The notes below the pieces were generated by a model. That model was not told the DNA's origin and searched no databases. It saw only the letters and a list, made by a program, of their open reading frames with translations. Both the position numbers and the translations under genes were made by a program. Of a stretch of 23,237 nt of DNA, positions 11,017 to 14,946 are shown piece by piece. The DNA is from an uncultured Bacilli bacterium (GTDB lineage: Bacteria > Bacillota_I > Bacilli_A > RF39 > UBA660), in NCBI GenBank assembly GCA_947629395.1, contig CANRDQ010000020.1, forward strand, positions 1 through 23,237. The letters run 5' to 3'. Within the stretch, counting starts at the first letter, position 1; the number at the start of each line of letters is the position of its first letter.

Positions 11017-11484
11017 ATGGATATTGATTTATCTGCATTATATAGTAAAACAGTAGATAAGATAGAAGTAGATACTAATATTTCTTTTTCTAAAGAAGAA
11101 CTAGAAAATACTAAAATAAAAAAGTTAGATAATATTAGTATTAAGGGTTATATTTATATTGATACAAATGATTCATTAAAAGCAGATCTCGATTTTGCAG
11201 GAGTCATGGTTTTAGAGGATGATATATCTTTAGAGGACGTAGAGTACCCATTTTCAGGTAAAATTACCGAAATTTCTGAAGAAAATTCAAAAAGTTTTGA
11301 AAATATACTTGATTTAAAAGAAATTTTGTGGGAAAATATTGTACTGGAGATTCCCTTGAAGTTTACTAAAGTTGAAAATTTAGAAGAATTTAATGGGGAT
11401 GGATGGAAATTAGTTAGTGAAAATGAACTAAGCAAAAATAATAATCCATTTCAGGATTTGTTAAAAGATTTTAAAGAGGAGTGA
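11017..11484 (+). CDS. yceD: YceD/DUF177 protein (23S rRNA accumulation)
   Basis: The 155-residue acidic protein is identified partly by position: yceD (ylbN in Bacillus) immediately before rpmF is one of the best conserved bacterial gene pairs, and the two are linked to large-subunit rRNA accumulation and ribosome assembly. The length, beta-rich character and C-terminal NPFQDLLKDFKEE tail fit the family. No catalytic motif is expected. The start follows AGAGGAGGT. The TGA stop is 4 bases before rpmF, whose ribosome site lies inside the yceD end. A TGA stop here argues against the mycoplasma code. Confidence 0.82.
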   Translation: MDIDLSALYSKTVDKIEVDTNISFSKEELENTKIKKLDNISIKGYIYIDTNDSLKADLDFAGVMVLEDDISLEDVEYPFSGKITEISEENSKSFENILDLKEILWENIVLEIPLKFTKVENLEEFNGDGWKLVSENELSKNNNPFQDLLKDFKEE

Positions 11485-11488
11485 TATC

Positions 11489-11695
11489 ATGTTAGAATTA
11501 AACATTCAAATGTTTGCTGTTCCAGCTCGTAAAGTTTCTAAAACTAGACAAAGAACTAGAAGAGCTCATAGTGCTATGGAAGAACCAACAGTTACTAAAT
11601 GTAAAAACTGTGGTGCTCCAATAAAACCACATCGTGTATGTAAAGAGTGTGGAAGCTATAAAGGAAAAACAGTAGTAGCTAAAGATGCAGAATAA
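11489..11695 (+). CDS. rpmF: 50S ribosomal protein L32 with L27-like N-terminal leader
   Basis: Structural protein of the large ribosomal subunit. The body VPARKVSKTRQRTRR and the four-cysteine zinc ribbon (C38, C41, C51, C54) are typical L32. Unusually, the frame begins MLELNIQMFA before VPARK. L32 normally begins M-A-V-P. The ATG at 11489 has GAGGAG 7 bases upstream; the alternative ATG at 11510 has no ribosome site, so the extension is probably translated. LNIQMFA closely resembles the LNLQ(F/L)FA leader of L27 in Bacillota, which the Prp cysteine protease removes. Cleavage after FA would leave VPARK. Processing is inference. Confidence 0.93.
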   Translation: MLELNIQMFAVPARKVSKTRQRTRRAHSAMEEPTVTKCKNCGAPIKPHRVCKECGSYKGKTVVAKDAE

Positions 11696-14237: not shown

Positions 14238-14266
14238 TTGATATTTAATAGAAAATGTGCTATAAT
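14238..14266 (+). promoter_or_regulatory. Strong promoter for the first small membrane protein
   Basis: TTGATA (14238-14243), 17-bp spacer, TATAAT (14261-14266) preceded by TGC (extended -10). It begins right at the end of the murE terminator T tract and is among the best-matching promoters in the window. Confidence 0.75.
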
Positions 14267-14299
14267 GTGGGCGTAAATATTTATGAGAGGGGGATTATC

Positions 14300-14590
14300 A
14301 TGAAAGATACTGAAAAAGAAGAGAAAAGAAGAAAAAGAGAGAAGAAAATCGATAACCTAGTAGTTAACTTTGAAAAATTTTATGAAAAGGGAAGACTTGT
14401 TCTTTTAGCAATCGGTGCAATAACAGGATTAGGTTATATAGCAACACACGGTGATGAAATAAAGGAATATCAACGTGAAATTTCAAACAGAAATAGAGAA
14501 CAATATGAAGATTCTATTGATTATAATCCAAATGAACAAAGCTTTGATATGACTACAAAAGATGGTCAAAAGATTAATGTGTTAAGATAA
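14300..14590 (+). CDS. Small single-span membrane protein, first of a pair
   Basis: Unrecognised protein of 96 residues. The start at 14300 follows GAGAGGGGGA; an in-frame ATG further upstream (14255) overlaps the promoter and is rejected. Layout: a very basic N-terminus (about 1-20, rich in K, R and E), one hydrophobic segment LVLLAIGAITGLGYIA (about 34-49), then a polar C-terminus ending TTKDGQKINVLR. The positive-inside rule predicts the N-terminus in the cytoplasm. The next gene has the same plan and a similar ending (DGKVYKVERP), so they may be paralogues. Flanked by murE and sigK and driven by a strong promoter. No function can be assigned. Confidence 0.75.
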   Translation: MKDTEKEEKRRKREKKIDNLVVNFEKFYEKGRLVLLAIGAITGLGYIATHGDEIKEYQREISNRNREQYEDSIDYNPNEQSFDMTTKDGQKINVLR

Positions 14591-14643: not shown

Positions 14644-14946
14644 ATGAAAAAAGAAAAGAAAGATAGAATAGTTAGATTTAGTTTTAATATCGATCAATTT
14701 CAAAGAACTATTAAAAAAGGTTTAGCTTTTACTTTAGTTGGTGCGACTATGGTTGGAGGAATCATCGTAGGTGGAGATGTTTTTCTAGAAAGAGAAGAAA
14801 AACATTTACAAGCTATGAAAGAACAAGATGAAAGATGGGAACAAGAATATGAAGAAGGACAAAATTCTATTCCTGATAGTATTGTTTTAGAAGATGGTAA
14901 AGTTTATAAAGTAGAAAGACCTAAAGACAAAATTTATACACGTTAA
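14644..14946 (+). CDS. Small single-span membrane protein, second of a pair
   Basis: Unrecognised protein of 100 residues, preceded by AGGGGGGTAA. Layout: basic N-terminus (1-24), a glycine-rich hydrophobic segment from about residue 25 to 48 (ending GGIIVGGDVF), then a highly charged helical stretch (LEREEKHLQAMKEQDERWEQ) and a tail SIVLEDGKVYKVERP. Size, topology and the D-G-x-x-x-x-V ending parallel the preceding gene. The charged stretch could form a short coiled coil outside the membrane. A role in envelope or spore formation is only a guess from the neighbours murE and sigK. Confidence 0.75.
   Translation: MKKEKKDRIVRFSFNIDQFQRTIKKGLAFTLVGATMVGGIIVGGDVFLEREEKHLQAMKEQDERWEQEYEEGQNSIPDSIVLEDGKVYKVERPKDKIYTR

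Follow-up and report, generated by a model that had tools for sequence, protein, structure and literature searches.

We analysed a stretch of 23,237 nucleotides from an uncultured Bacilli bacterium (contig CANRDQ010000020.1), here called the window, in which rpmF, the gene of the large-subunit ribosomal protein L32, follows directly on a YceD-like gene. The locus contains the following features:

11017..11484, forward strand: YceD-like gene (PF02620), directly 5' of rpmF; context, outside the leader.
11476..11481, forward strand: Shine-Dalgarno sequence GAGGAG with a spacer of 7 nt to the long start; read from the sequence.
11489-11695, forward strand: rpmF (L32) with its ATG at 11489; the translation begins MLELNIQMFAVPARKVSKTRQ...
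11489..11515, forward strand: leader MLELNIQMF, 9 codons, with Leu at P6, Gln at P3 and Phe at P1; from the sequence and comparison with relatives.
11513..11518, forward strand: predicted Prp cleavage site Phe9/Ala10, derived from the F/A cut of known substrates and from position 1 of the Pfam profile falling on Ala10.
11516..11695, forward strand: predicted mature L32, AVPARK..., plus stop codon; PF01783, residues 10-64.

The rpmF product matches PF01783 (Ribosomal_L32p) with 76.6 bits (cut-off 21.3) over positions 1-55 of the 56 in the profile, i.e. near full length, and is a bL32 by Pfam score and length. As the domain spans residues 10-64 with profile position 1 placed on Ala10, residues 1-9 extend an L32 that is complete without them. 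A first-pass annotation of this DNA had proposed that rpmF encodes an L27-like leader ahead of the L32 body, and this is borne out by the translation and the Pfam boundary. We consider it very probable, judging from sequence comparison, that these nine residues are a cleavage leader of the type that the protease Prp removes from L27. The YceD-like ORF upstream scores 32.6 bits against PF02620, marginally below the cut-off of 33.2, and the rpmF Shine-Dalgarno sequence sits within its last codons. Elsewhere in the window, two adjoining ORFs at 14255-14590 (111 aa) and 14644-14946 (100 aa) have no Pfam match at E 0.001.

The GAGGAG 7 bases upstream, assigned to the long form by the same annotation, is confirmed at 11476-11481, and in 69/69 leader-bearing relatives the long start has an SD-like sequence ahead of it, under a loose definition accepting several purine-rich words. 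The window also has an in-frame ATG at 11510, at which, or elsewhere, L32 might begin with the long start being unused. We regard this as extremely unlikely and reject initiation at 11510: an ATG at this internal position (P2) is present in 16 of the 69 leaders, none of which has an SD-like sequence 5' of it, and is missing from the other 53. Moreover, the amino-acid motif of the leader is kept while its codons change, the conserved positions varying synonymously across the 69 leaders with CAA/CAG for Gln, TTT/TTC for Phe and four different codons for Leu at P6. L012, a relative with short L32, shares this SD context, but its ATG is followed at once by GCN; the leader thus acts like an insertion or deletion placed in frame behind the start codon.

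Leader-bearing and short L32 forms occur side by side among the relatives. Among 31 rpmF loci in genome contigs, 13 carry the leader (L001-L011, L013, L014), the rest being short with the start codon abutting the body; L031, an actinobacterial short form, was left out of later counts. Protein relatives of the window L32 (120 listed of 246) comprise 93 with the motif, 26 short forms and one, P0112, with His for Gln. Relatives of a QRF-type L32 (120 listed of 810) comprise 43 with the leader, 74 short forms and three fitting neither rule, namely P0141 and P0143, which are short forms read from a farther-upstream start, and one protein beginning MAGP. In a sample of 385 genomes from the order of relative G001, which we take to be RF39, an L32 match was found in 363 and a Q-x-F-A-V-P pattern, belonging to L32 or not, in 135. 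Of 150 listed L32 matches in this sample, 91 coincide with Q-x-F-A-V-P, 52 start late and seven start early without the pattern. The seven early starters are four F/G leaders with an altered body start (G391, G149, G206, G313), one reading QRF/GVP (G345), a normal leader (G302) and a short form (G078). Fetching 13 additional Q-x-F-A-V-P matches yielded 11 L32 proteins with leader and two that are not L32.

Parsing of L32 starts in 115 related genomes, i.e. those whose L32 was retrieved and parsed (the sequences of G095 and G338 were retrieved but stayed unparsed), gave 69 with the leader, 46 short forms and none with any other extension; 69/115 is no frequency, as many genomes were chosen for having, or lacking, the leader. 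The invariance of Gln and Phe among the 69 leaders is partly by construction because the motif belonged to the rule defining a leader, and P0112 shows that His can stand for Gln. In all 46 short forms the start codon, 45 times ATG and once GTG, stands directly before AVP, hence the leader is absent and not degraded. Relatives without the leader, which the first-pass annotation had named as speaking against its reading, thus do exist, and in the 69 others the leader is conserved together with its SD sequence. Read from their genomes, the short forms show that the leader is dispensable in these relatives, which says nothing against its use where it is present.

Five L32 leaders (L181-L185, from G391, G149, G206, G313 and G345) end in F/G, four of them reading QLF-GALPARR or QLF-GPLPARR with a changed body start and one reading QRF-GVPFRR; the residue after the Phe of L27 is Ala in 109/109 cases read. 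If Prp cut ahead of Gly, this would break the F/A rule; the F/G ending also lies outside the published motif.

No L32 leader was found outside the order in a class sample (395 genomes) or a phylum sample (295 genomes), both searched with a narrower pattern allowing only P2 codons with a middle T, so QRF, QAF and QTF leaders would escape it. The pattern occurs in 30/395 genomes of the class sample, where 13 of 33 matches are L32, and in 23/295 genomes of the phylum sample, where four of 26 are L32. All of these L32 matches belong to genomes of the order sample, and those that are not L32 are unrelated frames. By these searches the leader is found in one order-level group.

The motif at the start of L32 is more than a chance match. 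L/F-x-x-Q-x-F-A/G/S within the first 25 residues was found in 0/261 control ORFs (at least 100 aa, both strands, from the window and L001-L031). Genome-wide searches of relatives G002 and G006 with L-x-[hydrophobic]-Q-x-F-A returned the L32 and L27 leaders only, among the matches listed; other genomes searched in this way gave extra matches in numbers similar to a reversed-pattern control. A third leader-bearing protein was not found among 20 stretches read around motif places, again among the matches listed, none of them resembling a leader followed by a protein of any size. Second QTFAVP matches in G139, G156 and G382 were rejected as leaders, being internal to other frames.

As to the site of cleavage, the initiator Met of a protein is generally removed when Ala stands second. 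An F/A cut fits better than FA/V because its product, AVPxRK, would equal the ordinary short L32 after Met removal. The first-pass annotation had placed the cut after FA, with the body running from VPARK. We reject this position, since two papers document Prp cutting between F and A in the parts available to us (PMC5744158, PMC9405229) and the Pfam boundary lies at Ala10. The mature L32 of the window would therefore begin AVPARK.

The candidate protease and its known substrate are present in the same genomes. L27 starts could be read in 62 genomes with the L32 leader and in 44 with short L32; all 106 carry the L27 leader. Prp was found in 62/62 of these leader genomes, G001-G003 included (relatives, not the window's own genome), each time with intact H-x8-D-x2-C, the same spacing as the catalytic residues His22, Asp31 and Cys34 of S. 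aureus Prp described in the available text of PMC9405229. The first-pass annotation had called for a check for Prp together with a leader-bearing L27, and both are encoded by every leader relative with readable L27. The drafts of the remaining seven of the 69 leader genomes yielded no L27 or no L27 start. By batch, L27 was found in 25/30 leader genomes, 30/30 short-L32 genomes and 27/30 genomes of a further batch. Among the first 30 genomes, L27 and Prp each occur once in 29 and lie no more than 120 b apart in 29/29, with a single Prp match per genome; the G017 draft is without both. Short-L32 genomes likewise have the L27 leader (44/44) and Prp (43/43 among those with Prp read), so the presence of Prp alone is no argument for cutting of L32. 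In G030, Spiroplasma sp. TIUS-1 (L048, L082), the L27 leader has diverged to LGLQYF/ASKKG and the active-site stretch of Prp differs too, reading GHANAGKFGNDLICAGVT.

The two leaders also resemble each other genome by genome. Wherever L32 carries Q-R-F and L27 is readable, L27 carries it as well (11/11 genomes), compared to 3/51 of the other leader genomes with readable L27, and the P4 residue is identical on L32 and L27 in 52/62 genomes. Fisher values for the agreement are 7e-10 and 2.7e-6, kinship among the genomes being ignored. On a tree of Prp, the L27 body and L21 (108 rows, built with a quick method), Arg at P2 needs two changes on L32 and four on L27, placing the QRF agreement close to a single event. 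Mismatches occur, with L27 QRF accompanying L32 QLF in G148, G243 and G302 and L27 QLF accompanying L32 QKF in G387, and P2 of L32 is often Met, Thr or Ala where L27 carries Leu or Phe. The Prp leader motif given in the available text of PMC9405229, MLxx(D/N)LQ(F/L)F'A, is matched by the window's MLELNIQMF'A, in which P4 has Ile in place of Leu and P2 has Met. Ile at P4 is the state of most L27 proteins in the same genomes, and Met at P2 occurs once in L27 (G024).

The same source reports that C. difficile Prp failed to cut an S. aureus peptide (PMC9405229, seen in part). Prp being matched to the substrate of its host, a single enzyme acting on both proteins would call for matching leaders within a genome. 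G167 and G325 (L264, L272), two related genomes in which L32 is short, have the L27 leader LDIQKF with Lys at P2, which again suggests a clade-specific taste of Prp.

From the conserved leader, its likeness to that of L27 and a Prp with intact catalytic spacing we infer the cut itself, Prp as its agent and an effect on assembly; one protease probably trims two ribosomal proteins, L27 and L32, as far as genome comparison tells. Since the enzyme is assigned from sequence, another protease of similar taste might remove the leader instead. We hold this to be very unlikely, given that the motif and its changes track the L27 leader of the same genome and that 29 of 30 genomes have a single Prp match. 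A further alternative, likewise unlikely although less so, is that the leader stays on, or that it serves as a chaperone or an assembly tag and its cutting does not matter, as reported for the capsid and scaffold proteins of S. aureus phage 80alpha: uncleavable versions of capsid or scaffold leave the phage viable, and the scaffold needs its leader until it is cut, according to the parts of PMC5744158 available to us, and 46/115 of the relatives read do without an L32 leader. Against this, the leader bears the Prp recognition residues, ends exactly at the ordinary L32 start and has P2 and P4 residues that go with those of L27. These observations favour removal by Prp, and the Prp-type leader claimed for L32 by the first-pass annotation is supported by its conservation with the SD sequence and by L27 leader and Prp in 62/62 genomes, the cleavage being predicted.

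The presence of the leader changes at least eight times across the 105 labelled rows of the tree (62 with, 43 without); three of the 108 rows have no leader label, and G348 appears as short only because its L32 was not included, its match to L32 coinciding with QxFAVP. Eight gains or losses are a minimum, taken from a quickly built tree in which many forks are weak and the root cannot be relied on.

We propose the following model. Translation of pre-L32 would begin at the upstream ATG; Prp of the host would recognise L-[DN]-[IL]-Q-x-F and cut before Ala10, releasing AVPARK..., the same start as that of short L32 after methionine removal. Left uncut, pre-L32 would bear nine additional residues on the N-terminal arm, so cleavage probably licenses the protein for assembly into the 50S subunit, in the way known for L27. 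The uncut form of L27 would interfere with tRNA binding, and an uncleavable L27 was not viable in S. aureus (PMC9405229, in the text available); by analogy uncut L32 should assemble badly. In E. coli, bL32 adjoins uL22, and particles without both can misplace H61 and domain IV, as stated in the accessible part of PMC11723945; our search for the location of the L32 tail found nothing closer than this source.

The closest known system is long bL27, processed in S. aureus and B. subtilis by Prp, a cysteine protease of family C108. Both share a leader of about nine residues with L-[DN]-[IL]-Q-x-F and an F/A site, located at the N-terminal end of a large-subunit ribosomal protein, with the same Prp gene available. 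In contrast to long bL27, the carrier here is L32, which is unrelated to L27, some relatives have the leader and others lack it, and cleavage is predicted. The capsid and scaffold proteins of phage 80alpha share the leader motif with L27, and the host Prp cleaves them at F/A; unlike L32, they are phage proteins with leaders of 13 and 14 residues, and viable capsids form without cutting (PMC5744158, in part). FlhB, proposed as a Prp substrate in flagellated bacteria in the available text of PMC9405229, is likewise a host protein other than L27 with an L27-like start, but it is a membrane protein of the flagellar export gate and was proposed from its sequence only. In mitochondria, an N-terminal part of MrpL32 has to be removed by the m-AAA protease before ribosome assembly (PMC5438985, in the part seen). 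That protease is ATP-dependent, removes 71 residues in yeast and has its site set by fold and not by a motif, and we imply no common origin.

L27 is the one ribosomal substrate known for Prp, a protease considered as a drug target in the available text of PMC9405229, which mentions L32 once, as an exit-tunnel protein; the accessible parts of PMC7737663 and PMC4014445 add nothing on L32. The first-pass annotation knew of no Prp-type leader on L32, and our literature search on Prp with L27, L32/rpmF, Mollicutes or RF39, with the founding Prp papers outside its scope, likewise found no paper with an L32 leader or L32 as substrate. With FlhB proposed and the phage capsid and scaffold known as Prp substrates, what would be new is the ribosomal substrate, the protease being known.

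With somewhat less than even confidence, we put forward a wider model according to which Prp gates 50S assembly at two points, i.e. bL32, acting with uL22 in the folding of domain IV, and bL27 at the peptidyl transferase centre. Ribosome output would then scale with Prp activity, and the leader would have been gained or lost repeatedly, in parallel to mitochondrial L32 maturation without common origin. Should L32 indeed be a second ribosomal substrate of Prp, this would show that a bacterium, here of an uncultivated gut lineage, can put two ribosomal proteins under one processing step, and the processing of mitochondrial MrpL32 would have a counterpart in bacteria. The natural paired substrates with QLF, QMF, QRF, QAF and QTF may serve for reading the specificity of Prp, and the presence of the leader on some related L32 bodies and its absence from others offer a way to ask what purpose it serves.
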